Shown one piece after another: positions 637 through 15,730 of a DNA stretch of 21,650 nucleotides. The position numbers were made by a program, and so were the translations under genes. Below the pieces are notes generated by a model. The model was given only the letters and a program-made list of their open reading frames with translations, was not told where the DNA came from and did not search any database. This stretch comes from a virus: the IMG/VR virus record IMGVR_UViG_3300033145_002733, positions 1 through 21,650 of that record. One strand, given 5' to 3'. Every line of letters begins with the position of its first letter. The stretch's first letter is position 1.

Positions 637-683
637 TGGTGCGCCTGGAGAGACTCGAACTCCCGACACGCGGTTTAGGAAAC
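637..683 (-). repeat. Left attachment site: displaced 3' part of tRNA-Arg(CCT)
   Basis: This copy runs from the anticodon loop through the T-arm and acceptor 3' strand to an encoded CCA. The 17 bases at 667-683 are identical to 15685-15701 and form the core. The T-arm differs from the intact tRNA by a compensated pair (A-U here, G-C there), so it is a genuine tRNA 3' end and not random decay. Confidence 0.9.
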
Positions 684-791
684 TGAAATATACCCTTTTT
701 ATAGTTTGCGTAACCTTGCAATCCCTTGGTATTATTGGCTTTGTCATTTCTTGGGATTACCCCCAAGTGCCGTTTTTGGGTGCATTTTAAA

Positions 792-818
792 ATGTTTGCT
801 CCCAAAATGCTCCCAAAA
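792..818 (+). repeat. 27-bp arm-type repeat, left copy
   Basis: This matches 15562-15588 exactly and in the same orientation. It contains GCTCCCAAAAT followed by a second CTCCCAAAA. It lies 108 bases inside the left core; the right copy lies 96 bases inside the right core. That symmetry is expected of integrase arm-binding sites in attP. Confidence 0.8.
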
Positions 819-853
819 AAAACAACCGCCTGTTCCCAATGCGCCCAAGTGAT

Positions 854-882
854 ATTATACGATATATACACAATCCAGTCAA
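854..882 (-). promoter_or_regulatory. Outward sigma-A-type promoter at the left end
   Basis: TTGACT at 877-882 and a consensus TATAAT at 854-859 are separated by exactly 17 bases, reading leftward. Between here and tadA I see no terminator: the hairpin at 750-767 has no U-run on this strand. It would give tadA a promoter after the element cut it off from the tRNA unit, or it drives a short element RNA. Confidence 0.7.
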
Positions 883-1069
883 CACAAGCCACACCTTACC
901 AATAGCAAGGAAAACATTACCCCCCGATCCGTCCCGCTGCTCTGGTGGCTGCCCCCTCAGCACCGGTTGTCCCGCTCACCCCATGCGGGGGTCTTGGCGT
1001 TCGACGGATCATCAATATTAAATTGTACCCCCGGCCCTCAACTACTCCGCAAAATGAGTATAAGTCCCC

Positions 1070-1315
1070 TCAAAATTTACCGGTACCGTACAGCATTACT
1101 CGTATTTCGTCCAGCGTTTCACGGCTGGCTCCCAACCTCCCCGCTACAGTCTGTAATGCTTGAAGGTGCCCGGTCGCCATGCTTACTAGGCGGCGCTTAT
1201 CCTCTTGGGACGATGTTTTCGCCATGAATGAAAAATAAAAACAGGCATTGTCCACAATATCACGATATATCCGCTCAAACAGTTCATTTATTGGCCACGC
1301 CTCCCCCACCCGCAC
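1070..1315 (-). CDS. Hypothetical protein, 81 residues, left-end operon
   Basis: I do not recognise this protein. It starts at a GTG with AAGGGGAG about 8 bases upstream, one base after the TAG stop of the preceding gene, so the two are probably translationally coupled. The product is soluble and mostly helical, without Cys-rich motifs, signal peptide or membrane segment, and ends in a segment with DEIRVMLYG. It is the last gene of a three-gene operon near the left attachment site, where satellites and prophages often carry accessory genes. Function is unknown. Confidence 0.65.
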   Translation of the reverse strand: MRVGEAWPINELFERIYRDIVDNACFYFSFMAKTSSQEDKRRLVSMATGHLQALQTVAGRLGASRETLDEIRVMLYGTGKF

Positions 1316-1316
1316 A

Positions 1317-1649
1317 CTATGCTCCCCTTCGTAATAGCAGCCCGTTAACTAATACATTAAAGTTATCATCATCCAGGGTGTTACACGCTCGGGCCAGGTT
1401 AACGCTACCGCTGCCGCCATACAAGTTTAGTGCCACATCAACCATGAGCTTTTCACCGCCGCTTAACCCGGCTTTCAACTCCCCAAGGGTCATATCACAA
1501 TTAAGGTATCCTATATACCGCTGCCACACATCCCGCCCCAGGGAGGTGATGATGTAACACAGGCTCATATACTCCCGGTCATCATTACCGCCCAGCTCGG
1601 CCAGGGCCTCATTATAGAGTGCCTCATGCGCTTGGCTGTTGAACGTCAT
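1317..1649 (-). CDS. Hypothetical protein, 110 residues, left-end operon
   Basis: AGGAGGGG lies 5 bases upstream of the ATG. The product is a soluble protein with an N-terminal helical segment (EALYNEALAEL) and a C-terminal GGEKLMVDVALNLYGG stretch. The shape (about 110 residues, a GG turn followed by A-x-N-L-[YW]-G) recalls small phage proteins of the DUF6075 kind, but I hold that only weakly. It is the second gene of the leftward operon, 64 bases after the 123-residue gene and directly followed by the 81-residue gene. No catalytic motif is visible. Confidence 0.7.
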   Translation of the reverse strand: MTFNSQAHEALYNEALAELGGNDDREYMSLCYIITSLGRDVWQRYIGYLNCDMTLGELKAGLSGGEKLMVDVALNLYGGSGSVNLARACNTLDDDNFNVLVNGLLLRRGA

Positions 1650-1713
1650 AAGATCCCCTCCTGGTCGTTGGAATAGGTTTTACTGAGTATTTCTCCTGTA
1701 GCTCCGTTTGCCT

Positions 1714-2085
1714 TTATTGCTCAACTGCTTCCTTTGACAGCTTTTTGCTTGCATAAACGTAGTCACATGCAATGCTGATTAACTGGACTATGAAATCGTA
1801 GTCCCAATACCATTTATGAGACTGCTTCCCGTTTGCATCCTCGTCGTTTAGATTTGTATCAGCCCACTTTATAGCAGCATGGGGTGTCGGATTTTCACTG
1901 AAAATATAATTGTTCTCCAAATGGCCTAATACCGTGTTGGCCTTTTCAAGTTTTATTAAGATGTCCTCAAGGGCCATTGTCTTTTTATACAGTTCATCCT
2001 TTAACCCTTCGATTATTTTTTGGGTGGTGTCCGCCGCAAATGTTCCGGATACTTCATTTTCAATAGGCACAGCAACATTAACCAT
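1714..2085 (-). CDS. Hypothetical protein, 123 residues, first gene of left-end operon
   Basis: It has a strong ribosome binding site (AAAGGAGG, 7 bases before the ATG) and a consensus-like promoter at 2176-2204. Residues about 20-60 are predicted helical and possibly coiled (KIIEGLKDELYKKTMALED continuing into LIKLEKANTVLGHLEN). The C-terminal part is rich in aromatic residues (KWYWDYDF). No known domain is recognised. Its promoter faces the small Xre-type regulator across a 210-bp region with repeated operator-like motifs, so the regulator probably controls it. Possible roles are superinfection exclusion, defence or helper interference; nothing in the sequence settles this. Confidence 0.75.
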   Translation of the reverse strand: MVNVAVPIENEVSGTFAADTTQKIIEGLKDELYKKTMALEDILIKLEKANTVLGHLENNYIFSENPTPHAAIKWADTNLNDEDANGKQSHKWYWDYDFIVQLISIACDYVYASKKLSKEAVEQ

Positions 2086-2175
2086 AGTAAATCCTCCTTT
2101 GTTTTTTATTGTCGCGCACTACAAAAGTATATTGATGCATAAAACACAATGCATTATGCAGTTACTATACTTCAT

Positions 2176-2204
2176 ATTGTAGTTTGCATTTTGCAGTATG
2201 TCAA
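2176..2204 (-). promoter_or_regulatory. Promoter of the left-end operon
   Basis: TTGACA (2199-2204) and TACAAT (2176-2181) with a 17-base spacer read leftward into the 123-residue gene. One copy of the ATTTTGCAG motif lies inside the spacer (2188-2196). Confidence 0.7.
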
Positions 2205-2273: not shown

Positions 2274-2294
2274 TACATTGGAGGTGATACATAA

Positions 2295-2510
2295 ATGTCG
2301 GAAATTAAATGCCGCTTGAGTGCATTAATGGGTGCAAAACGTTTAAAGATAGTAGACTTGCACGATATATCCGGAATAGCCAGAGATACAATAAGTAGTC
2401 TTTATCATGAAAAGGGTAAAGGAATAACATTTGACGTTTTGGCTAAGCTCTGTGCTGCTCTAAACTGCCAACCCGGTGATCTATTTGAATACATACCCGA
2501 CGAAAAATAA
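2295..2510 (+). CDS. Small Xre/Cro-type HTH regulator, 71 residues
   Basis: The product is almost entirely a lambda Cro/C1-type helix-turn-helix domain: RLSALMGAKRLKIVDLHDIS, then GIARDTISSLYHEKG as recognition helix, then FDVLAKLCAALNCQPGDLFEY. Such 65-75 residue single-domain regulators are common in Firmicute mobile elements. GGAGGTGAT precedes the ATG by 7 bases. It runs against its neighbours, divergent from the left-end operon and convergent with the late operon, with which it shares a terminator. Cytoplasmic DNA binding is expected. Likely role (inference): repressor of the left-end operon and of itself. Confidence 0.88.
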   Translation: MSEIKCRLSALMGAKRLKIVDLHDISGIARDTISSLYHEKGKGITFDVLAKLCAALNCQPGDLFEYIPDEK

Positions 2511-2573
2511 AATTTCCTGAAAACGCATAATCAGGGAACTGTCATTACTGTCGTTGGTCAAGCATTAACAAAA

Positions 2574-2706: not shown

Positions 2707-2868
2707 TTAAAATAAATCCATTGTTAGCAATAGCCACTCTGCACCGCTATATATATAAACGTCCATAGTATTAGTTTCAAGGTATCGGCTCCCCGGCGGT
2801 ACGTTTTCTGTTGGCTTTGCTTCTGTAGACAGCCCCATATAACGCCTGTAGTAAGTTACCATAATCAT
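2707..2868 (-). CDS. Small phage structural-type protein, 53 residues
   Basis: This short reading frame starts at ATG 2866-2868 with AGAGG upstream, 16 bases after the zinc-ribbon gene, and is the last gene of the late operon. The middle has a pattern recurring in phage head-fibre, head-decoration and tail proteins: STEAKPTENVPPGSRYLE followed by DVYIYSGAEW (a proline- and glycine-rich turn, then a beta hairpin ending in a tryptophan). That pattern argues for a virion component, but the protein is too short to assign. About 100 non-coding bases separate it from the terminator. Confidence 0.6.
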   Translation of the reverse strand: MIMVTYYRRYMGLSTEAKPTENVPPGSRYLETNTMDVYIYSGAEWLLLTMDLF

Positions 2869-2884: not shown

Positions 2885-3109
2885 TCAAATTCCCGCCAGT
2901 TTGGCCACCTTACGGCTCACCCGGGCGGTTTCCTTTCCATCCCGCATAGCAGCGTAATATTTTAACATGCTCCAGGCCCATGCTGCCATATAGCCGGGGT
3001 CCTCTCGTTGTTTAAAGTATTCTGCCGGAAAATATTCACCGTCACAAATAGGGCAGTAGTAATGGTCATCTTTTATCATCATTTCCACTTTGCATGTTGG
3101 GCAGGTCAT
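2885..3109 (-). CDS. Zinc-ribbon protein, 74 residues
   Basis: The N-terminal half is a four-cysteine zinc ribbon (CPTC at residues 3-6 and CPIC at about 19-22) followed by an acidic/aromatic stretch and a basic C-terminal helix. The same pattern, CPxC, a Met, CxxC or CxC, then E[FY][FW]P and [PR]EDP, occurs in the middle of the neighbouring 328-residue protein, so the two ribbons look like relatives. The start overlaps the end of that gene by 44 bases, with a weak GAGG about 10 bases upstream. Function is unknown; nucleic acid binding or a scaffold role are possible. Confidence 0.75.
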   Translation of the reverse strand: MTCPTCKVEMMIKDDHYYCPICDGEYFPAEYFKQREDPGYMAAWAWSMLKYYAAMRDGKETARVSRKVAKLAGI

Positions 3110-4052
3110 CTTTTTGGTACCTCGCTTTCACAGCAGCCCTCCGCGCTTTCTCGTCTTTAAACCACGGGTGTTCTTTCCAATCACCATTGAGTGACCCTTT
3201 CAGCGCCTTCATGTTAGCTACGCCTTTATTTATTGGCAGGTATGCGTCAGACTTTAAGCTAATCCTGATTAACTTATAAACTGCGTCCAGGGTCCACTCA
3301 CGTCCCCGGTTGGTTTTAAAGCCCTCCATGTTTAGACGGTCGGCTATGTCGTGGCAGTTGTAGCCATGCCCGGCCATACTGAGCACTATCTCATTGATGC
3401 GCTCGCGCTGGGCCTGGTAGTCCTCCCCGGTGGCCATTATCCCATTGCGCTTTAGGTGTGCCAAAACATTTGCCCGCGCCCAGGGTTTACCCCGGGGTGT
3501 AAGGTGCCCGGCAGCGTTAAGAGCTGCGGCAATCTGGATTGCATTGTTACCCTCGTTATAAAGGCGCTGCATCAGCTTTACCAGGTCGTCTCCATCCTCA
3601 GTTCTTAACCTCCAGGGTCGGGTCCAGTCCTCGGGATCCTCGGGCACCTGCTTATCACATGGCCAGAATTCCGCGCCACATTCACAGCGCCAGAAGAATA
3701 GGTCCTGCTTCTTCATAGTGCCACCACACTCGGGACAGAATAGGTCATCATTACCTGATATTGTGGTATCAATGCCGGCGCGCTTCATCCAGCTATTGAC
3801 CGTGTTTTCATGTATGCCCGCCTTACGCGCAATTACAGCGGGCGAAAAGCCCTGCCGGGCCAGGTCAAGCGCTGCAGCTTTCTTTGCTTCAAGCTCCCGG
3901 CGGTATTGCTGCCGGTATTCCCGGTACTCAGGTAACTTCAACAGGCGCATGTTTAAAATGTCGCTATCCATGCCCATTTCCCGGGCAACCTCTACCACTG
4001 CAGCACCGGCTAAAACCTTCTTCAGCACTTCTTCAATATCCAGCAGGATCAC
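3066..4052 (-). CDS. Multi-HTH, zinc-ribbon DNA-binding protein in the late operon
   Basis: The 328-residue protein has an N-terminal HTH-like segment (about 10-35) and a clearer HTH (about 65-95, GFSPAVIARKAGIHENTVN). A zinc ribbon follows (about 108-130, CPECGG and CECGAEFWP). Two consecutive copies resemble the DNA-binding Recombinase domain of large serine recombinases: IAAALNAAGHLTPRGKPWAR and IADRLNMEGFKTNRGREW. No serine resolvase catalytic domain is present, so it should bind but not cut DNA. It sits directly after the capsid gene, where connector and tail genes would normally begin. The start is uncertain: a sequence very close to the anti-SD complement (AGGGGGTGATCC) overlaps the nominal GTG, so translation may begin slightly downstream. 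Function is unknown. Confidence 0.8.
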   Translation of the reverse strand: MILLDIEEVLKKVLAGAAVVEVAREMGMDSDILNMRLLKLPEYREYRQQYRRELEAKKAAALDLARQGFSPAVIARKAGIHENTVNSWMKRAGIDTTISGNDDLFCPECGGTMKKQDLFFWRCECGAEFWPCDKQVPEDPEDWTRPWRLRTEDGDDLVKLMQRLYNEGNNAIQIAAALNAAGHLTPRGKPWARANVLAHLKRNGIMATGEDYQAQRERINEIVLSMAGHGYNCHDIADRLNMEGFKTNRGREWTLDAVYKLIRISLKSDAYLPINKGVANMKALKGSLNGDWKEHPWFKDEKARRAAVKARYQKDDLPNMQSGNDDKR

Positions 4053-4100: not shown

Positions 4101-5936
4101 CTAGGCTCTCGTTGCCAGTGCCACAAACGGACTAACGAGATCAGTCCCTTTGTATGAACTCAGGGGCGCGTTAAACACGGGCTGCCCTGCTACCCGATAA
4201 GTGAATTTAAAGACCTGCTCATCGTACAGGAAGCGTACATGAACGCTCACAGCTGCATCAATACCACCTTTGTCGGCCAGCAGATAGTTTGAAAGGTCAC
4301 ACAAGAGTATATCACCGGTTGTCCCTAGGCTCTCAGCCTGTTCAATGGGAATCACTGGGCGACCGAACAGCGTGCTGTAAGGCTGTCCGGAAATGCCGCC
4401 TGCCGGCATATAAACCGGGATCCCGCCAACCCCAACTGCCATAGACATTGCGAACAGCTGCGGCAAAACATTTTGGTTGATTAGCCAAACGCTGTTTGGC
4501 TGTGAAGGTGCCCACAGCCTAGCCCACATTTTTGTTATGTTCTCAAATATCACACTATTGGCAGCCTGAGCAGTTTCTTTTGGCACCGATACAAGGGCTC
4601 CGCTGTTCATAATTCCAAGCGGTTTTCCAACTCCCTCACCACGGAGGATACAATCATCAATCACAAACGCAAACTCTTCAGCAAAAGCCTGCTGGATAAC
4701 GCTCTGCAAGGTAGCTGAGTTCTCGATCAGCTCATCGGTGGCATAACATAACCCGATCAGCTTATTCAAGCTCAGTTCCATTTGTCTAAATTTTGGCTTA
4801 CTGCCGGTGTATTTATCAGCCTCAGCTGCCCAATATGCCCGGACACCACCCCAACGGCTGCCGGTAGCTCGGCTGGACTCGGCAACAGCGTTTATTTTCA
4901 TGCTGTTGGCGTTGGTGCTGATGGGAATTCTTCGGCAGCGGCTGGCCAACACGCCGGTTTCATAAGTGCGCTTTAAAAGCTCACTGCTAAAATCCTGGTT
5001 AACCAGGAAACCACCGTCAGCCGGCACGGACTCGCCAAGCCCGCTGGCTGCCCGCTTGGTCAAGCGCTCGTCAACATACCCGTCAGGCATACCGGCGCGC
5101 ATTACTGCCTGCAGCTGCTCGCCAAGGCTGCGCCATTCATTGGTTGGTTCAATCACCTTTACATTGGGTTGCCGGCGCTTTTCCTCTTTTTTAAACTCGC
5201 CGTTTTTAATCCGTTTTTCTAGGCTTCTAATCTCGGTCTGCAGGTCGATATAATCACGCTGCTCATCGTCGCTCAGGTCCCGTTCCTCGTCGTCGGCAGC
5301 GGCCATAATAGCGTCGGCCTGTGCTTTCAGATTAGCTAATTTCTGCCTTGCTTCGCGTTCCTGTAATTTCATGGTTTTTTTACCCTCCCGAATTTTTTTA
5401 TATTCTTCCAGTGACCGACAGTTTACCTCATTATTGGGGTAGGCTGGAAAGGCCACAGGAGATATTTCATAGAGTTCAGCGTCAAGAATGGACCGCTTAT
5501 ACAGCTTTTGGCTATCCCGTTCAACACGGGACCATTTGTCTTTAACTACCCTCATACCAAAGGATACGCCGTCAACGTCACCGCGCTTGATACTTTCCCA
5601 GGCATCGCTGCCGGCTTGAGTGTCGGGTAAATCAAGCTCAAAGTTAAGCCCGGCCTGATCAGAGTTAACGCGAAGGGTGTTAGCCTTAGTGTTGCCCAGC
5701 ACTTGGGCGGTGTCATGGCTCCATAATCCCACCACACCCCGGTTTTTTAGGCTATCATCAAAACACCCAGCGCCTAACTCTTCAACAAATGAGTCACCCC
5801 AAAAGTCACGCATAACCGCGCTTTCGGTGTCGTACTTGATCTTACCGGTAATGGTCCGTTTACTGCTATCCTCGGTCTGTCTTACCTCCAGCCTTACCGG
5901 TAATGCCCTAATTTCCTTCCCCTGATTCTTTTTCAT
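4101..5936 (-). CDS. HK97-type prohead protease fused to major capsid protein
   Basis: Residues 1-188 form a serine prohead protease of the HK97 gp4 family: H74 in GLWSHD, S125 in GVSFGM, and YEISPVAFPAYPN. Residues 189-611 form a full-length HK97-fold major capsid protein: a charged coiled delta-domain (about 190-275), then the mature fold from about 300 (ASGLGESVPADGGFLV onward). The ATG at 5934-5936 has AAAGGAG upstream; a frame-compatible upstream ATG lacks one. At the junction (5370-5400) lie two A7 tracts, a GGGAGG, and ATG codon 189 read as ATGA. This suggests an internal start for free capsid protein and an origin by a one-base change fusing two genes. It overlaps the portal gene by 29 bases. 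The protease matures the capsid from within the prohead. Confidence 0.93.
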   Translation of the reverse strand: MKKNQGKEIRALPVRLEVRQTEDSSKRTITGKIKYDTESAVMRDFWGDSFVEELGAGCFDDSLKNRGVVGLWSHDTAQVLGNTKANTLRVNSDQAGLNFELDLPDTQAGSDAWESIKRGDVDGVSFGMRVVKDKWSRVERDSQKLYKRSILDAELYEISPVAFPAYPNNEVNCRSLEEYKKIREGKKTMKLQEREARQKLANLKAQADAIMAAADDEERDLSDDEQRDYIDLQTEIRSLEKRIKNGEFKKEEKRRQPNVKVIEPTNEWRSLGEQLQAVMRAGMPDGYVDERLTKRAASGLGESVPADGGFLVNQDFSSELLKRTYETGVLASRCRRIPISTNANSMKINAVAESSRATGSRWGGVRAYWAAEADKYTGSKPKFRQMELSLNKLIGLCYATDELIENSATLQSVIQQAFAEEFAFVIDDCILRGEGVGKPLGIMNSGALVSVPKETAQAANSVIFENITKMWARLWAPSQPNSVWLINQNVLPQLFAMSMAVGVGGIPVYMPAGGISGQPYSTLFGRPVIPIEQAESLGTTGDILLCDLSNYLLADKGGIDAAVSVHVRFLYDEQVFKFTYRVAGQPVFNAPLSSYKGTDLVSPFVALATRA

Positions 5937-7113
5937 CCTTGGCTCCTTTCGTTGGTGGATATAGTACATCGCTACCAGGTAATGGTCTTAAGTTCTCTCT
6001 GATCCTCGCCTCATTCGGTGTCATAAAGCCGCTGGTAATGGCGGTCTGATAACATGAGTAGCGGGTCTTGGTGTCGGTGCGCAAAAGGCTATCAGTCAGG
6101 AATTCAACAAACAGGTTTTGACGTTCGGTATTGGTGAATAATTTCAGCGTTAAAGCCTCTTCCAATCTTGTTAGGAAGGGCTGTAGAGAGAATGTCAGGA
6201 ATTCAAGGGACTGGGTTTCGACATTGGCATAGGCCCCCCTAACCGTGGGGTCCAGCATGTGCGCCGGTATCCGCAAGGCTGCCGCTATGGCTCGCATGGA
6301 GAATTGCCGGCTTTCAATCAGCTGCGCTTCCTGTGCGTTGCTGGAAATAGGCTCAAAAGCAGTCCCATCTTCCAATACTGCTGTGCCGTGGCTTTTACCA
6401 CGGCCATAGGCAGCCTGCCAGCCTTCCTTCAACCGCTTGGCTGATTCTTCAGTAAGGGTATTGGATACTTTTAAAATCCCTGACGGCCTAGCGCTATTGG
6501 CAAAGTAACTGGCTGCGTGCTCTTCACCGGCCAGGGCTGCCGCTATGCTTTCCCGGGCCAGCTGCACGGGTGATTTCCCGGTAAGGCCATCTAGTGACAA
6601 CATGGTGATATGCAGCATATCATCGGCGGTATAATCCTTGCGCTGCCCCTGCGTGGTTACCTTGTAAAGAAGGGTGCCTTCGTCCTGCAGCTCCATATAC
6701 ACACGGCTGGGGTGTATGGGCCAGAGTGCTTCAGGGCTGCCGTTATCGCCCCACTGAATGAGAATATAGGCGTTGCCGTGCAGCAGCAGGTGCAGACATA
6801 GAGTTTCCTTGAACGCGAAAGGCGTCTGCTGCGGGTTTGGTCTGGTGTGCAGCAGCTCATATACCGGGTGCCCTTCGGCCCGGACTTTACCGCCTGCAGT
6901 GCGTTTGTATGTAATTAGTGGCAGGCTTGCAGTTAATTCCGCAATCATGCGGACAGCTCCCAATACCGCCGGGTGTCCCATGGCGGTTTCAGCTGTTACC
7001 GTTACGCCGGCCGCCGTAGTCCCGCCGATCAGGCTCTGCCAGCCGTCGGGGTCACGCCAGGGCAGGGCGCGCTTTTCAGTTTTCTTCCCAAACAAGCGTT
7101 GAAGAATGTTCAT
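5908..7113 (-). CDS. HK97-family phage portal protein
   Basis: The portal forms the dodecameric ring at one capsid vertex through which DNA is packaged and to which the tail is joined. The 401-residue product has the HK97 gp3 hallmarks: an N-terminal LFGKK segment, GHPAVLGAVRMIAELTASLP near residues 45-65, PxxxYELLHTRPN, HGNAYILI, the L-D-G-L-G-SP loop, and IPAHMLDP near the middle of the C-terminal half. Length is at the short end of normal. The ATG overlaps the terminase stop as ATGA, with AAGGAG 10 bases upstream, so translation is coupled. It forms a continuous packaging cassette with the terminase and capsid genes. Confidence 0.95.
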   Translation of the reverse strand: MNILQRLFGKKTEKRALPWRDPDGWQSLIGGTTAAGVTVTAETAMGHPAVLGAVRMIAELTASLPLITYKRTAGGKVRAEGHPVYELLHTRPNPQQTPFAFKETLCLHLLLHGNAYILIQWGDNGSPEALWPIHPSRVYMELQDEGTLLYKVTTQGQRKDYTADDMLHITMLSLDGLTGKSPVQLARESIAAALAGEEHAASYFANSARPSGILKVSNTLTEESAKRLKEGWQAAYGRGKSHGTAVLEDGTAFEPISSNAQEAQLIESRQFSMRAIAAALRIPAHMLDPTVRGAYANVETQSLEFLTFSLQPFLTRLEEALTLKLFTNTERQNLFVEFLTDSLLRTDTKTRYSCYQTAITSGFMTPNEARIRENLRPLPGSDVLYPPTKGAKDEKESGEGN

Positions 7114-8648
7114 ATGACAAACAACTCCTTCGAGTTATAAACACAATCTTGTTCCTGGTGCCGCGTAGCACGGTCCAATGCCATGATTAGGGCCACCATA
7201 CCGTCAATTTTTTCTGTGCTTTTACTTTTATCCGGCTTAATGTTGCCGGCGGGGTCTTGCTTAACTACCAAGTTATCAGCCATCCACCTTAACACCGGGT
7301 TGCCGCCGTGGATTAATCGCTTACTCAGTACCAGGGTTAGCAGTTCCTTGGTGGGCGGACTCATGGATGCAAACCCTTGACCAAACGGAATAACCGTAAA
7401 GCCAGCATATCCAAGTTCGGTTGTGAGTTGTACCGCGCCCCAGCGGTCAAAGGCGATTTCCTTAATGTTGTAAAACTCACTTATTCGTTCAATGTGTTGT
7501 CGTATGGCTGCGTAGTCTATGACGTTACCCTCCGTGGCGGTGATAAACCCCTGCCTAACCCAAACATCATAGGGCACGCGGTCCCGGTTTATGCGGTCGT
7601 GCATGTTATCCCGGGGGATCCAAAAGTGTGGTAATACCACAAAAGCGCCGTCATCCATCGGGAATACCAGCACAAAGGCGGCTATGTCAGTTGTACTGGC
7701 CAAGTCCAGGCCACCAAAACAGGGGCGGCCTTGTAAGTCTTCCAGCGTTACCGTGCCGGCTGTAGCATCCCAGGCAGCCAGGTCTAGCCAGCGATCCTCC
7801 TGCTGGGTCCACTGGTTCAGGTATAACCGCCGGAAGGTGTTCTGCAGGGCGGGTATCTGCTCGCCCTTTTTGGCCATAGCCCGCATTTCATTAATACCTC
7901 TAAAGGTGCCCAGTGCAGGGTTGGCCTTGTGCCAGGTAGCTTCATCTTTCCAGTCATCTTCAGGTCCGGCAGCATAGATAACCGGGAGGAATGTCGGGTC
8001 CTCAATTACTCCGTCAATTATCTTTTGGGCATAATCATGTTGTTCCCAGCAGATAGAGTTGCGGTCATAGCCGGCTGTAGTGATGGCAAATATCAAAGGC
8101 TGGGTCCTGGTCCCGCCGCTAGTGGTTAGAACGTCCCACAGTTCCCGGTTGGGTTGGGCATGTAGCTCATCGAAAATAACTCCGTGGGCATTAAAGCCGT
8201 GCTTGGTATGTGCGTCTGCGGATATTGCCCGGTAGAATGACCCCGTAGCCGGCATCACTATCCTTTTTTGGCTGTCTATGATCTTGCAGCGCTTGGCCAG
8301 CTTTTTATTTTGCCGGACCATTTGTGCGGCCGTATTAAATACGATGGCTGCCTGGTCCCGATCCGCTGCCGCGGAGTAAATCTCCGCGCCGGGCTCGTTA
8401 TCCGCAAAAAGGAGCTTCAAGGCTATTGCAGCGCCTAACTCAGATTTGCCGTTTTTTCGAGGAATTTCCACATAAGCGGTCCGGTATTGCCGGCTGCCGT
8501 CATCATTCAAAGTCCCAAATAGGGGACTGATTATGTTGTGTTGCCAGGGTTCCAGCTCAAACCTTACGCCGGCCCACTTGCCCTTGGTGTGGGTAAGGTA
8601 GTTTTCTATGAATTTGACGGCCCTTTCTGCGGCCTGTTCATTAAACAT
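7110..8648 (-). CDS. Phage terminase large subunit
   Basis: This is the ATPase-nuclease motor that fills the capsid. The 512-residue protein is of the Terminase_1 (HK97 gp2) family: an adenine-binding ELEPWQ near residue 31, Walker A as RKNGKSE (64-70), Walker B as VIFDE (157-161), a TTSGG coupling motif, and a C-terminal RNase H-like nuclease beginning FGGLDLAST, with conserved acidic residues through EIAFDRWGA. Full length with motifs intact, so packaging activity is expected. It lies 6 bases after the small subunit gene and overlaps the portal gene by 4. Confidence 0.96.
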   Translation of the reverse strand: MFNEQAAERAVKFIENYLTHTKGKWAGVRFELEPWQHNIISPLFGTLNDDGSRQYRTAYVEIPRKNGKSELGAAIALKLLFADNEPGAEIYSAAADRDQAAIVFNTAAQMVRQNKKLAKRCKIIDSQKRIVMPATGSFYRAISADAHTKHGFNAHGVIFDELHAQPNRELWDVLTTSGGTRTQPLIFAITTAGYDRNSICWEQHDYAQKIIDGVIEDPTFLPVIYAAGPEDDWKDEATWHKANPALGTFRGINEMRAMAKKGEQIPALQNTFRRLYLNQWTQQEDRWLDLAAWDATAGTVTLEDLQGRPCFGGLDLASTTDIAAFVLVFPMDDGAFVVLPHFWIPRDNMHDRINRDRVPYDVWVRQGFITATEGNVIDYAAIRQHIERISEFYNIKEIAFDRWGAVQLTTELGYAGFTVIPFGQGFASMSPPTKELLTLVLSKRLIHGGNPVLRWMADNLVVKQDPAGNIKPDKSKSTEKIDGMVALIMALDRATRHQEQDCVYNSKELFVI

Positions 8649-9201: not shown

Positions 9202-9585
9202 CTAGAAAAAAACGGTTAGCTTTTTTATCAGTTCCGGCCCTTCTGCGCTATGCAGCCGGCCATGACAAGTTTCACATACAGGCAGTAGGTTGTCTGAGTT
9301 ATTGCTCCCACCATCAGCCAGGTGTTTTATATGATGGGTTACAGCACTCACGGTCAGCCGGCCCTCCATCTTGCACACCACACACAGTGGTTCATGCCTC
9401 AGTACATAAGCCCGAGCCTGTGTGTACTGCTTGTTATACCCCCGCTTGTGCGCGCTGCCCCTGCGCGTGTCCTCATCCTTCCGGTATGCTTGCAGATGTT
9501 CCTTGCAGTACCCACGCCCTTGTGGTACCTGCAGGTTGGGGCAGCCAGGGGATCTACATGCTGACATTGGCTTCATAGGTGCCAA
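9202..9585 (-). CDS. HNH endonuclease, 127 residues
   Basis: The HNH core is VTHHIKHLADGG, then SDNLLPVCETCHGRLH, with a zinc knuckle CVVC about 20 residues earlier and an additional CRSPGC..C..H cluster near the N-terminus. HNH proteins beside terminase genes stimulate cutting at cos sites during packaging in HK97-like phages and in capsid-forming satellites. I chose the TTG at 9583-9585 because AAGGAG lies 8 bases upstream; the GTG at 9592-9594 touches the Shine-Dalgarno and the first ATG is 17 bases away. It is the first gene of the late operon, immediately after a terminator. A sequence related to the origin iterons (CCATTGGCA, minus strand) overlaps the start. Confidence 0.92.
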   Translation of the reverse strand: MAPMKPMSACRSPGCPNLQVPQGRGYCKEHLQAYRKDEDTRRGSAHKRGYNKQYTQARAYVLRHEPLCVVCKMEGRLTVSAVTHHIKHLADGGSNNSDNLLPVCETCHGRLHSAEGPELIKKLTVFF

Positions 9586-9610
9586 TGGTATCACTCCTTA
9601 CAAATAGAAA

Positions 9611-9653
9611 AGCCCACCTCAACGCGCGCTTGCAGTCGTGTTTCTGGTGGGCT
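9611..9653 (-). terminator. Terminator between early small genes and HNH gene
   Basis: AGCCCACC (9611-9618) pairs with GGTGGGCT (9646-9653) across a 27-base loop, followed on the minus strand by TTTTCTATTT. The stem includes the end of the Com-like gene. It would separate early from late transcription unless read through or antiterminated. Confidence 0.65.
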
Positions 9654-9771
9654 GTACCCTTACATATTCAGTTAAGGTGATTACCTTACCACATCTCTTA
9701 CACTTTATTATACCAAATATTTCCCCTATTGCAAGAACCTTGCCACAATATGGACAGTTATATTTTCTCAT
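9619..9771 (-). CDS. Com-like zinc-finger protein, 50 residues
   Basis: The 50-residue protein is essentially one zinc ribbon: MRKYNCPYCGKVLAIGE, then IKCKRCGKVITL. This is the layout of the phage Mu Com family (two CxxC knuckles with LA.GE between and a hydrophobic tail). Mu Com activates translation of a downstream gene by opening an mRNA hairpin; similar small ribbons occur in many prophages without known targets. Its ATG overlaps the stop of the RHH gene (ATGA). Its stop codon lies in the loop of the terminator hairpin preceding the HNH gene, a position from which an RNA-binding protein could influence late expression (inference). Confidence 0.72.
   Translation of the reverse strand: MRKYNCPYCGKVLAIGEIFGIIKCKRCGKVITLTEYVRVQPTRNTTASAR
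9707..9734 (-). promoter_or_regulatory. Possible late promoter inside the Com-like gene
   Basis: TTGCAA (9729-9734) and an extended -10, TGGTATAAT (TATAAT at 9707-9712), with a 16-base spacer, read toward the HNH and terminase genes. The transcript would start within the Com-like gene and run into the terminator hairpin. Confidence 0.5.
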
Positions 9772-10119: not shown

Positions 10120-10380
10120 TTAACACCACCCATCATGCTGGCAGTCAGGCAAGGCATTATAAATTTTATCGTAAGCTATATCGTAGGCTTCCGGTGTTCC
10201 AAGGATGCCCGTGGCACAAAACCCAACTAGCTTAAACATTTGGCTCTTTAGTCCGTAATGTCCATACCACACCTGGTGGGCACAAAAGCCCTCAGTAGGT
10301 TTATAGCTTTTGGCTTTCTTATATAGCGTTAATAACCTTGGCTCTATAGTCACCATTTGTTCCCATGTCATACCTGCCAT
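10120..10380 (-). CDS. Hypothetical protein, 86 residues
   Basis: AAGGAGGGGG stands 4 bases before the ATG. The product has MTWEQMVTIEPRLLTLYKKA, then FCAHQVWYG, LVGF and a C-terminal TPEAYDIAYDKIYNALPDC. I recognise this as a recurring type of small phage hypothetical protein, but it has no function I can name. Conserved cysteines and histidine (FCAH near 33-36, CQHDGWC at the end) could bind a metal. It overlaps the preceding gene by 13 bases within the early operon. Confidence 0.75.
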   Translation of the reverse strand: MAGMTWEQMVTIEPRLLTLYKKAKSYKPTEGFCAHQVWYGHYGLKSQMFKLVGFCATGILGTPEAYDIAYDKIYNALPDCQHDGWC

Positions 10381-10829
10381 CGTACCCCCTCCTTGGCAAA
10401 TATCCCGTCAAGTTCTGCAGCCTTATCCTTGGCCAGCTCCCACACCCGGCCACAATCGAAAGCCTTAATGATTTCATCCGTAGTCAATATCCGCTGCCGG
10501 CTATACGTCTTAATCAGCCTGTCAAACGCTGCCTTATACTCACCTATGGCCTTTCGGCTGCCAGCTATGTCCTGAGCCTTAAACATTGCCGCAATCTTGG
10601 CCTCTGCATCCTTCACCGCCCGGTAATGCTCCGGGCTATGCTCTGCCGCCCAGGGCAGGGCACCGTCGGGGTAATGCTGTTTAATTAGTTCATGTGCCCC
10701 CTGCAGTATGCCCAGGGCTTTGGGCTCATCCCATTGACCTATGGCACCTATGGCACTTCGGTGATTGTGCGTTTCAGTATTATTTTTTTGTTTGTAAGCA
10801 TCCAACCATTTATTCAAATTAATCACCAC
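10368..10829 (-). CDS. Hypothetical protein, 153 residues, next to the putative origin
   Basis: A soluble, largely helical protein without recognised domain. The N-terminal 40 residues include RSAIGAIGQW, which is simply the translation of two iteron copies at 10738-10755, so part of the coding sequence doubles as a DNA element. Residues about 85-150 have a charged helical pattern (AIGEYKAAFDRLIKTYSRQR). The start is uncertain: GTG codons at 10827-10829 and 10824-10826 both lack a good ribosome binding site, and a start inside the frame at a TTG is possible. Function is unknown; the position suggests a link to replication. Confidence 0.65.
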   Translation of the reverse strand: MVINLNKWLDAYKQKNNTETHNHRSAIGAIGQWDEPKALGILQGAHELIKQHYPDGALPWAAEHSPEHYRAVKDAEAKIAAMFKAQDIAGSRKAIGEYKAAFDRLIKTYSRQRILTTDEIIKAFDCGRVWELAKDKAAELDGIFAKEGVRWQV

Positions 10830-10949
10830 ATATTTATTTTTTACCCTAAACGACTAATTAAGGAAGTGCCATTGGTGCCATTGGTATCTAATTAATGGAT
10901 TATTTTTTAAATTTTAAGCACCTATGGCACCAATGGCACTTCGGTGATT
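10738..10949. repeat. Iteron cluster with A/T-rich spacers: candidate replication origin
   Basis: A 9-bp unit, CC[AT]ATGGCA, occurs as three tandem pairs: 10738-10755 (plus), 10867-10884 (minus) and 10921-10938 (plus). The outer pairs are each followed by CTTCGGTGATT. The second and third pairs form a perfect 19-bp inverted repeat (10863-10881 with 10924-10942). The stretches between pairs (10767-10862 and 10885-10920) are very A/T-rich. Iterons around A/T-rich DNA next to the primase gene are the pattern of SaPI-type satellite origins. Confidence 0.65.
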
Positions 10950-10955: not shown

Positions 10956-11642
10956 TTAGGTAAAAATTTTAGGATTTATCCGGTATACAATTTTTGGCTG
11001 TCTCCCCGGTATAGGCTCTTGTTCTTCGCGTAGCCAATTAGCTTCGAGAAGTTCCCGACATGCAGATTCCATCAATTCTTTCGTGTCAAGCAGGTGCCAG
11101 TGCTTACGGTGATAGATTTCCCTAATAGTAAAACCGTCTTTCACCATACCCTTTTTAACCCGCTTAGCTAATTCGGATGCTGCCCTGGTGGATATATCGC
11201 CCACCAGTCCATATATACGCCTGGCATGGCTTTCAAGGTAGTCACACCAGGCAGCTGCCATCATCGCCGCTTCGCCTGTAACCGGTCCGGTTGCTTGTCC
11301 ATCTGCAATACTTATCAGGTGAAATATTAACGCCAGGCTTGGCATGAGACTTCTGTATTTTGCTAGGTGTTCTACCATCAAAGGGCTTTCTTCTGTTTGC
11401 AGTTTCATTTGTAGATCGGTTAACCAATCAACAAATATTGCCTGTGCCTCATTATTAAAGTTGAAGAACGGTATCTTTTCACCATCAGGCAGCTTTGCCC
11501 CAACCCCGTTAAAATCCATTTCTGAAAGAGTTTTAAGTATGTTGTACGCCCTATTTTTTGCATTAATATTGGGGAATTCATCAATGTATTTCCATTTTGC
11601 CGGCTCATCAGGGTATACCAACATTTGAAACCGCTGGATCAT
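10956..11642 (-). pseudogene. C-terminal part of Prim-Pol/DUF3987 replication protein, after a nonsense codon
   Basis: This is the continuation of the reading frame that stops at 11700-11702. Translation past that TAA stays in the same frame with no indel and reads PAKLTGYLYQAENDL before the first ATG at 11640-11642, so one base change (probably CAA to TAA, in a conserved GGIQP-type segment) split the gene. The 228 residues contain the end of the DUF3987 helicase-like domain and a C-terminal winged-helix-like tail. AAGGA stands 8 bases before the ATG, so reinitiation could yield a separate polypeptide. The fragment ends 7 bases from the third iteron block. Whether the two parts work together is unknown. 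Confidence 0.75.
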
Positions 11643-11699: not shown

Positions 11700-13328
11700 T
11701 TATATTCCACCAAAAATACTGACACATAAGTTATCTGATTCAATCGTGCCGCGTCCTATACGGTCATCGGTTCGGCTACCGTACCCGTTCCATGACTCTA
11801 GGTAGTAAGCGCGGTCACCCTGTCGATTTTCTTGGTCCCAGGTAACCAGCAAGCCCACCAATTCATCCCGAAATAATAGCAACCCCCTTGGGTTATCTTT
11901 TTGCAGTTCGGTCATTTTTTCAACCGTAGCATCATTTGTTTTAAATCTGCGCCTTACCGGTGTGTCGGGTTCTTCAAGGTTGGCTAAACTATCTTTTAAT
12001 GTGTCCATCGTTGTAACAGTAGTTCCCGGTGTTACCGGCTTGTTTTTGCTTTTATTTTTGGCAGTGGCCAACATTTCACCCTTTATCGCTTCTTTTGTAG
12101 CTTTAAACGCTTCAAATTCTGCGCCGTAATACTTCATTTTCTGCTCATATTTATTTCTAGCCTCGACTTCCAGTCGTGATAAGGGTTTCATTACCTCGGT
12201 AAGCGAAGGCGTTTTTAACACCACTGACGGCCTACCGACAACGCCACCCCACAAATTCGGTATAACCAACCAATCATCTTTCTGCTTCGGTCGTATGCCA
12301 CACCCCGCACCAATTACCGCCCCGGCAACTACTATTGCAGCAGTAGCTACAAAATCAATCGGGCATTGCATCCTATATGAAATGTCTGTTAACCAATCCC
12401 TGAACGGCTCCGGTATTATCGCCGGTGGCAATGGTTCAACCGGCTGGAGGACGGTTTGTATTTCTTCCGGCTCGGGCCATTCGTCGTCAAATTGGCTAGA
12501 TATGCCCAGCCAGTCGCGCACTTTGGAGACAACTTCAACCCCAATCAGCTCGCCCAGTCGTTTTAAGCCCGTTGCCGGCCGGCCAGCGTTTATTTTCGCT
12601 GCTGTACCCCTTGCTTTGTTAGCCCGCATCCTGATTTCTTCATCACCAGCAGCCAGGGCAACGGCTTCAACAAAGTAACTCGTCTCGCTTTCACTCCACC
12701 CTGCACGAATTAAACCACCCGTCAGGGCCATTGCTGCATCATCCCGGCTACCTTTCGCCGGCCAGTGGCGGGCTATTAATGCAGCAGCTGCTAATTTGCC
12801 TGCTGCCGCTAGTAGTTCATCTGCATCCACCCGCGCCGGCTCCCCGTCCTCATGCCAGGTAATGGCCTCGCCGCTTTCATGCGTGCTTGGCGGGAATACT
12901 GTTTGTCCACCGGTGGATCTAATTTCAACCAGGGTATTACCGTTTATATCTTTAAACTGCCGCGTTGCTGAAATAGTTGTTATATATTCCCAATGTGACT
13001 TTGGCTTGCCGGCTCGGCCAAAAATGCTTTGGGTTTTAGGCATAAACGCTCCGGCTAGGGCAATGGCCTCCAAGCAGTCTAAGTCGATATCGGTTAACCC
13101 GCCAGAGGGTTCACCGAGCAGCACTCCGACATTCTCACCCTGCACAAAACGTCCAGGCAGTTCATCCTCTGTCAGTCGTAGGTTTTGCCATCCAGCACCA
13201 GCAGCTTTATATGGGTTTTTCTCACCAGAAGGGATAGGAATCACCCTCCACCCCCGCCGGACATAGCTTATTGCAGCCCTTAAAGTATTGCTTGTTTCCT
13301 CATTTTTTGGTATACTATTTGTATACAT
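11700..13328 (-). CDS. Prim-Pol primase-polymerase with DUF3987 domain, N-terminal part
   Basis: Residues about 20-175 are a bifunctional primase/polymerase domain (PF09250 type): GWRVIPIPSGEKNPY, then TDIDLDC with the metal-binding aspartates, a SHWEY segment and EIRSTGGQTVFPPS. From about 300 on lies a DUF3987 helicase-like domain, with a P-loop-like GRPSVVLKTP and a Walker B-like GLLLFRDEL. The P-loop appears one residue longer than usual because of a GTGGTG repeat. The protein ends at an in-frame TAA within DUF3987; the rest continues at 10956-11642, and the intact protein would be about 790 residues. I prefer the ATG at 13326-13328 (AAGGTG 9 bases upstream) over a GTG at 13338. It would prime replication from the nearby iterons. 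Confidence 0.85.
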   Translation of the reverse strand: MYTNSIPKNEETSNTLRAAISYVRRGWRVIPIPSGEKNPYKAAGAGWQNLRLTEDELPGRFVQGENVGVLLGEPSGGLTDIDLDCLEAIALAGAFMPKTQSIFGRAGKPKSHWEYITTISATRQFKDINGNTLVEIRSTGGQTVFPPSTHESGEAITWHEDGEPARVDADELLAAAGKLAAAALIARHWPAKGSRDDAAMALTGGLIRAGWSESETSYFVEAVALAAGDEEIRMRANKARGTAAKINAGRPATGLKRLGELIGVEVVSKVRDWLGISSQFDDEWPEPEEIQTVLQPVEPLPPAIIPEPFRDWLTDISYRMQCPIDFVATAAIVVAGAVIGAGCGIRPKQKDDWLVIPNLWGGVVGRPSVVLKTPSLTEVMKPLSRLEVEARNKYEQKMKYYGAEFEAFKATKEAIKGEMLATAKNKSKNKPVTPGTTVTTMDTLKDSLANLEEPDTPVRRRFKTNDATVEKMTELQKDNPRGLLLFRDELVGLLVTWDQENRQGDRAYYLESWNGYGSRTDDRIGRGTIESDNLCVSIFGGI

Positions 13329-13463
13329 ATTGATTGTCACCTTCTTCCATTGCCCCCGGCCCGTAATGCCGGGCTTTTTGTTTTCTACCTGGTTTCCAGC
13401 ATTTCAATTCGTATTCTAATGATTTCCGCGAACACCCAATCACCCCCATCCCGGGCGGGATTT

Positions 13464-13697
13464 TTATTTCAGCCGCCGGATTTTGCCGTTTGTTTCCGGC
13501 TCCGGCATCATACTTGCCTTTTCCTGTTCCTCCAGCCACTGCAGGATGCTTGAACGCCGGAATAGTACGCGCTTGCCAGCTCTCACATGTGGAAGTATTT
13601 TCCGCCGCGTCCAGTCATACACCGCCCATTCCGATATACCAAGCATTTTCCCCACTTCTTTGGCGACTATAGTTTCATGTTCTATGCTTTGTTGCAT
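13464..13697 (-). CDS. Excisionase-like HTH protein, 77 residues
   Basis: The protein is a MerR/AlpA-like winged helix of the HTH_17 type: VAKEVGKMLGISEWAVYDWT, then KILPHVRAGKRVLFRRSSIL, with a basic tail. Proteins of this kind at this position act as recombination directionality factors, bending att DNA for excision, or as activators such as AlpA. GGGAGG lies 8 bases before the ATG. It is the first gene of the early leftward operon, directly downstream of the promoter facing the repressor. That arrangement makes derepression simultaneously switch on excision and replication. Confidence 0.85.
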   Translation of the reverse strand: MQQSIEHETIVAKEVGKMLGISEWAVYDWTRRKILPHVRAGKRVLFRRSSILQWLEEQEKASMMPEPETNGKIRRLK

Positions 13698-13717
13698 AAC
13701 ATAAACCTCCCGTTTCC

Positions 13718-13805
13718 GTACTTTTAATTCGTGTTAATATTAAATTAGCGCATTATTAATTCGGTGTCAATAGTTTTTATTTGAATATCTGTACTTTTAA
13801 TTCGT
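13718..13805. promoter_or_regulatory. Operator-like direct repeats in the repressor/excisionase intergenic region
   Basis: GTACTTTTAATTCGT occurs at 13718-13732 and again at 13791-13805. A shorter related ATTAATTCGG lies at 13755-13764 inside the early promoter spacer. The three sites cover both divergent promoters and are the likely binding sites of the Xre-type repressor encoded at 13839. Confidence 0.65.
13742..13770 (-). promoter_or_regulatory. Early promoter for excisionase-replication operon
   Basis: TTGACA (13765-13770) and TAATTT (13742-13747) with a 17-base spacer read leftward into the excisionase gene. One operator-like motif lies in the spacer and another downstream of the start site, which is a classic layout for repression. 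Confidence 0.65.
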
Positions 13806-13810
13806 ATTGT
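13781..13810 (+). promoter_or_regulatory. Promoter for repressor-integrase operon
   Basis: TTGAAT (13781-13786) and TATTGT (13805-13810) with an 18-base spacer. The boxes are moderate. The second GTACTTTTAATTCGT repeat fills the spacer, which suggests autorepression. Confidence 0.5.
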
Positions 13811-13838
13811 GGTAGTATGTTAGTTGGAGGTGGGTACT

Positions 13839-14345
13839 TTGAGTATTGGCACTAAAATAAAAGAATTAAGAAAAAGTAAAAAGTTAACTCAAAAGGAATT
13901 AGCTAAAAAAATAAATAAGTCTGAACGCGTGTTACAAAAATATGAAAGCGGGGAAATAATTCCGTCATTTACAGTTATAGAAGATATAGCAGCGGCTCTT
14001 GATGTTTCATATCTATCTTTAATGATCGAAACAGTTGCCAATCCTGAAAAAGAGGATTTTTTTGAAGAAACTAAAAAAGCATGGGAAACTCTACATACTA
14101 ATAAAATAAAATTAACCATGTTAGATCATCCTGATATTACAAACCCTGTTCCATTTTCGGAAGTACTCACACCTGATAAAGCAGACGAATTATTGAATAA
14201 AATCTTAGATCAACGCGACATTGGTCGCTTGCTTCAGGATGAAAAGCCAATATACTATAATCGTCATGCTCTTAGTGAATATGAACGAAAACGTGTACTT
14301 GCCATGCTTAGAATAATGTTTCTACAAGAGGGAGAATTGGAATAA
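13839..14345 (+). CDS. Xre-type repressor, 168 residues
   Basis: Residues 1-60 are a lambda-repressor-type HTH: IGTKIKELRKSKKLTQKELA, INKSERVLQKYESGEIIPS, then ALDVSYLSLM. The remaining about 100 residues are acidic and show neither a LexA/CI Ser-Lys peptidase nor an ImmA-type HExxH site, so derepression probably needs a partner and not self-cleavage. This resembles Stl-type satellite repressors, which are lifted by a helper phage protein (inference). I chose the TTG at 13839-13841: GGAGG lies 8 bases upstream. The gene is A/T-richer than its neighbours. Its stop overlaps the integrase ATG (TAATG). Confidence 0.88.
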   Translation: MSIGTKIKELRKSKKLTQKELAKKINKSERVLQKYESGEIIPSFTVIEDIAAALDVSYLSLMIETVANPEKEDFFEETKKAWETLHTNKIKLTMLDHPDITNPVPFSEVLTPDKADELLNKILDQRDIGRLLQDEKPIYYNRHALSEYERKRVLAMLRIMFLQEGELE

Positions 14346-15523
14346 TGGCAGGTTGGGTTGAGCAACGCGGCGAAAATAAGTGGCGGCTTAATGTCCCTGG
14401 AGGTACGAGTCCGGGTGGCAACCGTAAGGTCTACCGCCGCACTGTGGAAGTTACCAGCGAACGTGAAGCAAAAAAACAACTTGATATTTTTTCCGCTGAG
14501 GTGCAGAAAGGCCAATACATTGAACCTTCAAAACTCACCTTTAAGGAGTTTAGTCAAAAATGGCTTGAATCTAAAATAGATTTGGCGCCCAAAACACAAC
14601 ACAGGTATAAGCAGCTTCTTGATATGCGTATCTTACCGGCAATGGGCCACATAAATTTAGAGGACATAAAGCCATTCCATATTATGCAGTTTTATGAGAA
14701 CCTACGGGAAAGTGGTATCCGTGAAGATGGCAAAGAAGGTACACTGTCACCCACAACCATACTGCACCACCACCGGTTACTAGTCACAATATTTAATGCA
14801 GCAGTAAAATGGCAGATACTCCTGACCAACCCCGCCGCCCGGGTGGAATCTCCAAAAGTTCCCAGAAAGCCTGCCACTTGCTATGATGAAAACGATATTG
14901 CCGCATTACTGGAAGCTCTGGAAGGGGAAGAATTAAAGCACCAGGTGCTTGTATATATTGCACTATACTGTGGGCTGCGTCGTGGTGAAATAATGGGCCT
15001 GGAATGGCCTGATATTGATTTCGACAACTCCTTACTTCACATAAGACAATCAAGTCAATACATACCCGGCAAAGGTAGCTTTACAAAAGAACCTAAAAAT
15101 GAAACAAATAAACGGGTCTTATCTGTTCCCGGTTTCGTTATGGCACTTCTGAAGGAATATAAGGTCTATCAGGTCCAGTACCGGCTACAGGTTGGTGATC
15201 TATGGCAGGGATCAACAAGATTATTTACCACATGGGATGGTAAGCCGGGCCACCCGGAATGGCCGTCCCAGTGGTTTTCCAAGTTTATTAAAAAACACAA
15301 GCTGCCTCACCTACCTTTCCACGGCCTCCGGCATACAGCGGCCACAATGTTGATTAACCTTGATGTACAGCTTAAAAATATATCCGGCAGGTTGGGACAT
15401 GCTAACCCGGCCACCACTGGTTTCATATATTCCCACTACCTAAAAAGCGCTGACAAGGCCATTTCTGACAAGCTAGAACAGCAGCATAATATGCAAATAA
15501 ACACAAAAAAAAGACAGGCGTAA
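14345..15523 (+). CDS. int: Tyrosine-family integrase
   Basis: The 392-residue protein has an N-terminal arm-binding domain (about 1-60), a SAM-like core-binding domain (about 62-170, TFKEFSQKWLESKI) and a catalytic domain. The catalytic residues are R212 (GLRRGE), H326 and R329 (HGLRHT), H352 (LGHAN) and nucleophile Y362 (FIYSHYL); all are present. It is translationally coupled to the repressor gene (TAATG overlap, GAGGGAG upstream) and is followed by a terminator and then the att site in tRNA-Arg(CCT), about 130 bases downstream. It should integrate and excise the element at the tRNA 3' end. Confidence 0.97.
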   Translation: MAGWVEQRGENKWRLNVPGGTSPGGNRKVYRRTVEVTSEREAKKQLDIFSAEVQKGQYIEPSKLTFKEFSQKWLESKIDLAPKTQHRYKQLLDMRILPAMGHINLEDIKPFHIMQFYENLRESGIREDGKEGTLSPTTILHHHRLLVTIFNAAVKWQILLTNPAARVESPKVPRKPATCYDENDIAALLEALEGEELKHQVLVYIALYCGLRRGEIMGLEWPDIDFDNSLLHIRQSSQYIPGKGSFTKEPKNETNKRVLSVPGFVMALLKEYKVYQVQYRLQVGDLWQGSTRLFTTWDGKPGHPEWPSQWFSKFIKKHKLPHLPFHGLRHTAATMLINLDVQLKNISGRLGHANPATTGFIYSHYLKSADKAISDKLEQQHNMQINTKKRQA

Positions 15524-15535
15524 AACCTGTCTTTT
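15509..15535 (+). terminator. Terminator after integrase
   Basis: AAAAGACAGG (15509-15518) pairs with CCTGTCTTTT (15526-15535), loop of 7 containing the integrase stop codon. The stem ends in TTTT followed by CC. Confidence 0.75.
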
Positions 15536-15561
15536 CCGGTCTTATTTGCTTCCTATTAATT

Positions 15562-15588
15562 ATGTTTGCTCCCAAAATGCTCCCAAAA
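15562..15588 (+). repeat. 27-bp arm-type repeat, right copy
   Basis: Exact direct copy of 792-818, 96 bases from the right core. In the excised circle the two copies would flank the core on both sides, as integrase arm sites do. Confidence 0.8.
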
Positions 15589-15654
15589 TAGCGTTTCAGC
15601 GAATTACGCTAGAAAAGCGAAAACCCGCAAATCCTTGCGGGCCTTGACTTTCAG

Positions 15655-15730
15655 TGGTGCGCCTGGAGGGACTCGAACCCCCGGCACGCGGTTTAGGAAA
15701 CCGCTGCTCTATCCTCTGAGCTACAGGCGC
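15655..15730 (-). tRNA. tRNA-Arg(CCT), integration target
   Basis: A full cloverleaf: acceptor GCGCCTG/CAGGCGC, anticodon stem GCGGT/ACCGC around TTCCTAA (anticodon CCT), T-arm GGGGG TTCGAGT CCCTC, discriminator A and an encoded CCA (15655-15657). The 3' half overlaps the right att core (15685-15701), so the distal part of this functional gene was brought in by the element. It reads AGG codons. It lies about 80 bases downstream of tRNA-Arg(ACG). Confidence 0.97.
15685..15701 (-). repeat. Right attachment core (17 bp)
   Basis: Identical to 667-683. It covers the 3' part of the anticodon loop and stem of tRNA-Arg(CCT) plus a few bases. Homology continues with three mismatches to the CCA end, but stops sharply on the anticodon 5' side. 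Confidence 0.9.

Follow-up and report, generated by a model that had tools for sequence, protein, structure and literature searches.

Integration and gene content of the element

The IMG/VR virus record IMGVR_UViG_3300033145_002733 was analysed over its full 21,650 bp (hereafter the window), and within it we identified an integrated element that encodes its own head and packaging proteins. Its length is exactly 15,018 bp, the spacing of two 47-bp repeats (637-683 and 15655-15701) which have 3 mismatches between them and are completely identical over 667-683 and 15685-15701. The empty site was found in the genome G021, which has 99% identity to the window on both flanks and in which window positions 95-683 and 15655-20397 are joined with an overlap of exactly 47 bp. 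The same locus is also empty in G020, G022, G001 and G024. An earlier note on this DNA, made from its letters alone, had proposed intact attachment (att) core copies around 15,018 bp, and the repeats and the empty site bear this out. As a host chromosomal island with its own integrase and a specific att site the element resembles the capsid-forming phage-inducible chromosomal islands (cf-PICIs), and its size is in keeping with their average of 14 kb (PMC10803314). Protein families of the element were assigned by Pfam and PHROGs, and its principal features are given below (aa, amino acids; HTH, helix-turn-helix).

637-683, no strand: attachment repeat at the left end, former 3' end of tRNA-Arg(CCT), displaced on insertion
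3066-4052, minus strand: g7, 328 aa, DNA-binding protein with tandem HTH and zinc ribbon, found only in three neck-less elements
4101-5969, minus strand: prohead protease (S78) fused to HK97 major capsid protein, 622 aa (PF04586, 2e-40; PF05065, 3e-43)
5908-7113, minus strand: portal (PF04860, 2e-105)
7110-8648, minus strand: terminase large subunit, TerL (phrog_9, 3e-192)
8655-9113, minus strand: terminase small subunit, TerS (PF05119, 2e-31)
9202-9594, minus strand: HNH endonuclease (PF01844; phrog_144)
10737-10939, no strand: six iterons, AT-rich, candidate replication origin immediately 3' of the primase
10956-11642, minus strand: primase-helicase, 3' part, in the same frame past a stop (DUF3987 positions 223-363)
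11700-13340, minus strand: primase-helicase, 5' part, Prim-Pol and start of DUF3987 (PF09250; PF13148 positions 1-204)
13464-13697, minus strand: excisionase or AlpA-like HTH_17 protein, 77 aa (PF12728, 1.3e-12; phrog_66)
13715-13808, no strand: two 21-nt direct repeats (90%) at 13715 and 13788, between repressor and excisionase, candidate operators
13824-14345, plus strand: HTH repressor-like protein, 173 aa (PF01381, 3e-16)
14345-15523, plus strand: tyrosine integrase, 392 aa (PF00589, 3.5e-21; phrog_1, 5e-68)
15655-15730, minus strand: intact tRNA-Arg(CCT) (ARAGORN), its 3' end being the right attachment repeat

The integrase and repressor lie on the plus strand and the genes from excisionase through capsid run divergently on the minus strand, with a divergent repressor/excisionase control region between them as in cf-PICIs. 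The Prim-Pol/DUF3987 gene, which has an in-frame stop in this copy, is followed on its 3' side by the iterons (GTGCCATWGGT), of which six were found against 0.03 expected, and this placement is that of PICI origins, which lie 3' of the primase (PMC6092414). The HNH, TerS, TerL, portal, protease and major capsid genes of cf-PICIs are all present, and the head open reading frames are intact. Having its own portal, protease, capsid and TerL, the element differs from classical PICIs of the SaPI type, which lack a full head and packaging set and redirect the capsid of a helper. The gene list of the earlier note (integrase, repressor, divergent excisionase and primase, HNH, both terminases, portal and protease-capsid) was thus recovered in full by family searches, and its terminator after the head genes corresponds to a bidirectional hairpin at 2576-2601. 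The excisionase-primase operon it described holds as to gene content, but the copy is not fully intact as its replication gene is broken.

Absence of tail, lysis and neck genes

No protein of the element matched a tail, baseplate, tape-measure, holin or lysin family in Pfam or PHROGs, in agreement with what had been noted from the sequence. As a positive control, the same library was applied to L254, a prophage of G023 with a related TerL, where it detected Ad1, Hc1, neck, tail terminator, major tail protein, tape measure and Dit right behind the capsid gene. The element has neither a complete tail nor a lysis module, as is the case for cf-PICIs, and no neck, tail and lysis genes of a complete temperate phage are recognisable in it.

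The neck proteins Hc1 and Ad1 likewise had no Pfam or PHROG match in the element. Profiles of both were run against all six frames, with L254 and L266 omitted from one Hc1 training set. These profiles recovered the neck in every control, including the left-out L254 and L266, and found nothing in the window or in L002 and L165, two related islands described below. There is also no room between TerS, TerL, portal and capsid for an overlooked gene. Head-tail connectors are part of the description of capsid-forming PICIs (PMC10690885), and their absence sets the element apart from plain membership of that group.

Related islands and the portal lineage

The closest relative, L002 (G001:C4), is a 16.3-kb island of Sporotomaculum syntrophicum strain FB. 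Its genes run in the same order (HNH, TerS, TerL, portal, protease/capsid, g7, zinc-ribbon protein, 53-aa protein) at 51-96% identity and are then followed by the chromosome, with no tail. The identities are 96% for TerS, 87% for capsid, portal and TerL, 80% for g7 and 77% for HNH. It differs from the window element in its integrase (36%), its att site (a 44-bp imperfect repeat) and its primase, which is of the D5 type. Since a tail-less island with another integrase and primase carries this head set, the set moves as a unit and is not the product of a recent deletion, from which the reverse of such an exchange of integration and replication modules would be expected. The protein just ahead of the L002 primase (L002 3159-3572) seems, by eye, to contain a J domain. 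The second relative, L165 (G044), is at least 13.0 kb long and reaches a contig edge; it encodes HNH, TerS, TerL, a portal with MuF extension, protease/capsid, g7 and the zinc-ribbon protein, and then continues into the chromosome. Its capsid, g7 and zinc ribbon have 32%, 34% and 43% identity to those of the window.

Besides the window element and L002, four more tail-less or nearly tail-less islands of 13.0 to 16.3 kb were found in the phylum. An island of 16,191 bp in G426 (L272) occupies the same tRNA-Arg as the window element (integrase 52%, HNH 62%, TerL 59%, portal 68%), and G035 (L266 and L258) has one of 15.3 kb. Both have a tail-less satellite architecture with the same block order as the window, but differ from it in possessing Hc1 and Ad1, which in G035 lie between TerS and TerL, and in a sigma-like protein in place of g7. 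This protein is sigma-70-like in both; it lies after capsid and Ad1 in G426 and behind the capsid in G035. The two proteins, which are 28% identical to each other, close the head operon of either satellite (L258 10235-11191; L272 15989-16948). The tail-less set recurs at conserved length in several genomes (L002, L165, G035 and G426), which the earlier note had named as support for a satellite. The G035 island is not neck-less, as connector searches revealed its Ad1 and Hc1; they also revealed both in the island of G068 (L253), which encodes Hc1, Ad1 and a 622-aa tape-measure protein behind the capsid. Thus the neck-less elements are only three, namely the window element, L002 and L165. A tape measure of its own without tail tube or baseplate genes was observed in satellite-like elements of two phyla, L253 (G068:C199, 2818-5484) and the Escherichia phage vB_KppS-Ant (L275, 2036-4333), where it may determine how long a borrowed tail becomes.

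The slot after the capsid is hence occupied by g7 in three elements, a sigma-like protein in two and a tape measure in one. The g7 protein has a zinc ribbon and tandem HTH regions, namely an HTH_23 and two HTHs of the Recombinase type that lack the catalytic domain. A search over 398 genomes of the phylum gave strong matches in L002 and L165 only, and five further matches were short (E 7e-5 to 9e-4). No full-length relative was found in IMG/VR with g7 alone or with a three-row g7 alignment, nor in INPHARED with two g7 proteins, and neither a PDB sequence search nor Foldseek with a low-confidence g7 model (pLDDT 64, pTM 0.32) returned anything significant. As its slot holds a sigma-like protein in two related satellites, g7 is most likely a late-gene regulator.

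Among known systems, Sp7 of E. coli O157 Sakai, which we take to be the counterpart of the cf-PICI EcCIEDL933, is like the window element in having integrase, primase, capsid, protease, portal, HNH, TerS and TerL but no tail in ~15.5 kb (TerL 35%, portal 32%, protease 40% and HNH 39% identity). It differs in having Hc1 and Ad1, separate protease and capsid genes and no g7, and its early genes have no detectable similarity to those of the window except a weak integrase match. The Sakai gene ECs_1595 (L264 21297-21737), annotated as 'holin protein', is homologous to the HNH endonuclease of the packaging module (39% identity to that of the window). Pasteurella phage Pmp8 (15.3 kb) and vB_KppS-Ant (16.5 kb, an induced element) similarly combine capsid, packaging and replication genes with an incomplete tail, but each has a head-closure and connector gene, and Pmp8 has a tail terminator and vB_KppS-Ant a tape measure, neither of which was recognised in the element. 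The gene at the HNH position of vB_KppS-Ant is annotated as hypothetical. The order HNH-TerS-TerL-portal-protease-capsid, which the earlier note had given as that of known capsid-forming islands, is not theirs, as all three references run capsid-protease-portal-Hc1-Ad1-HNH-TerS-TerL or its circular equivalent. The Streptomyces satellites MulchRoom and MiniFlayer also have their own capsid and packaging genes and depend on a helper, as the element appears to do from its genes, but they are parasites of virulent phages with direct terminal repeats and no obvious replicase, and the likeness is one of description (PMC10690885).

We built a portal tree from seven islands, Sp7, Pmp8 and vB_KppS-Ant (10 satellite portals) and 38 other portals, including those of near named phages. 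A branch with 100/100 support parts the 10 satellite portals from the 38 others, which come from named phages, prophages and viral contigs, in a tree that is midpoint-rooted, has long branches (G035 (L258) and the three Gram-negative elements) and was sampled by similarity. Another portal tree including Sp7 gave the same split. The portal of the element thus groups with those of known capsid-forming elements and not with tailed-phage portals, and a portal lineage common to the elements of this phylum and of gammaproteobacteria suggests that the satellite head is old and was not repeatedly borrowed.

Apart from these, the following features were found in the element.

797-818, no strand: left tandem of TGCTCCCAAAA (TRF)
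1070-1315, minus strand: 81-aa protein, common to L002 and the G023 island
1317-1649, minus strand: DUF6075-like protein (PF19552, 5.6e-05, slightly below cut-off)
1714-2085, minus strand: 123-aa protein, no family given
2295-2510, plus strand: small regulator of the HTH_26 family, 51% identity to a counterpart in the island of G023
2576-2601, no strand: terminator-like hairpin, 11 bp with T runs, closing the xis-to-capsid operon
2707-2868, minus strand: 53-aa protein, 60% to L002
2885-3109, minus strand: zinc-ribbon protein, 74 aa, next after g7 in all three neck-less elements
9619-9771, minus strand: Com-like zinc ribbon, 50 aa, common to L002, L245 and L258
9768-9986, minus strand: 72-aa protein, no family match
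10120-10380, minus strand: 86-aa protein, no useful family match
10368-10829, minus strand: 153-aa protein of the early operon, no family match
15567-15589, no strand: right tandem of TGCTCCCAAAA (TRF)

The TGCTCCCAAAA tandem pair lies just inside both element ends and is likely to represent integrase arm-type sites, as similar motifs recur in L203 and L261, islands with the same integrase and site. These two, L203 (G023:C1, 686-15569; 14.8 kb) and L261 (G025:C3, 4565-17844; 13.2 kb), occupy the same tRNA-Arg as the window element and their integrases are 83-85% identical. Both carry capsid gene(s) together with a tape measure of 674/675 aa, neither TerL nor portal was recognised in them, and L261 has two tandem capsid genes with no protease seen; they are either decayed or another satellite type. 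A further satellite candidate, L245 (G033:C18:13500-23494; integrase 57%, excisionase 63%, portal 70%), is located near a tRNA-Thr and its contig ends within the portal. Besides, the near-identical host species G021 carries a tail-bearing prophage (L265, G021:C11:222000-241900) with a tape measure of 1213 aa and unrelated terminase and portal, a possible helper type.

Capsid-encoding satellite reading and its alternatives

The precise insertion with an empty site, the recurrence at conserved length and the shared portal lineage make a capsid-encoding, tail-dependent satellite the best reading. From the sequence we consider the element, with a probability of about 0.85, to be a phage satellite residing in the chromosome, capsid-forming but in a neck-less variant, and presumably mobilised by a tailed helper. 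The capsid-forming PICI of the earlier note stands as a satellite that encodes its own capsid and would depend on a foreign tail, but not as to connectors and gene order. As the element is without tail or recognisable neck genes, both are probably borrowed from a real virus. The activity of a tailed helper would lift repression, and Int and Xis would excise the island, whose replication would start at the iteron region. The protease and capsid of the element would then build small portal-capped heads into which its HNH, TerS and TerL would package its own cos-ended DNA, cos packaging being suggested by the HNH-linked terminases. The neck (adaptor and stopper) and tail of the helper would dock on the satellite portal, and the helper would lyse the cell.

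Several points weigh against this reading. The gene order of the window is unlike that of the Gram-negative references, strongly diverged neck proteins could evade sequence profiles, and of the neck-less elements L002 alone comes from a named strain. In the genome of that strain, G001, a resident helper is not evident, since its single Phage_capsid match is the satellite itself and its match to the major tail family is weak. Moreover, an in-frame TAA (11700-11702) between the two matched parts of DUF3987 breaks the primase-helicase, so that the copy may need a different replicase or have lost the ability to replicate. The lineage could then be a satellite one in which the present copy is dead and at most integrated and expressed. 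This is a serious possibility though the less probable case, as the other reading frames are intact, the exact att sites and the vacant locus in close relatives indicate recent movement, and one stop known from one record may be due to an error of sequencing or have arisen by mutation very recently.

It is rather unlikely that the anatomy is that of an ordinary cf-PICI with an unrecognised neck, for instance among the small genes. Neck proteins are small and fast-diverging, and the element does have several genes of 50-150 aa without a family. However, the six-frame profile that found Hc1 in the left-out controls was silent in all three neck-less elements, the packaging and head genes leave no gap, nothing in L002 matches the 153-, 86- and 72-aa genes, and behind the L165 capsid there are g7 and the zinc ribbon only.

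A decayed prophage, with its tail and lysis genes deleted and its head genes left as passengers, is an improbable origin of the element. The nonsense codon in the primase-helicase and the capsid, terminase and protease families, which are ordinary siphophage ones, would fit such decay; against it stand the intact head genes, the separate portal lineage, the exact insertion at a locus that is vacant in close relatives and the recurrence of the tail-less set, at conserved length, in diverged elements whose integrases and primases differ. The earlier note had named as the sign of a recent deletion a relative with the same head genes and with tail and lysis genes at the position of the 328-residue gene. 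No such tailed relative was found among 90 capsid and 66 TerL loci; the closest relative, L002, is tail-less and has the same 328-residue gene after its capsid. TerL identity reaches 73% (L093), and the whole set with g7 was found in no searched locus except L002. A recent deletion from a prophage was accordingly rejected on L002 and L165, by which the decayed prophage is already largely refuted. A capsid without a tail gene also occurs in encapsulated or domesticated systems, yet it is highly improbable that the element is a transfer agent or a capsid-based function domesticated by the host and not a selfish satellite, as it has its own integrase, excisionase, repressor, iterons and terminases, and near relatives have precise empty sites, which speak against vertical conservation at one locus.

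Within the satellite reading, we tentatively, at slightly less than even odds, combine these observations as follows: a satellite branch may have given up both neck and tail, with the adaptor and stopper of the helper docking on a portal-capped head; the slot after the capsid may be a dedicated late switch; and the portal lineage of Desulfotomaculia-type and gammaproteobacterial elements may reflect old satellite-specific heads crossing phyla. A set of capsid-making satellites is present in relatives of Sporotomaculum and elsewhere in their phylum. The element departs from the known capsid-forming satellites by its missing neck, and its host is a sulfate-reducer-type Clostridia relative; among the papers listed by a literature search, beyond whose reach the primary cf-PICI paper lay, none reported satellites in a Desulfotomaculum host. 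If true, the loss of the neck would shift the compatibility interface between satellite and helper from neck-tail to portal-neck, and it predicts which helper proteins sit in the particle. Whether g7, a sigma-like protein or a tape measure follows the capsid may reveal the late function that a satellite most needs to own.

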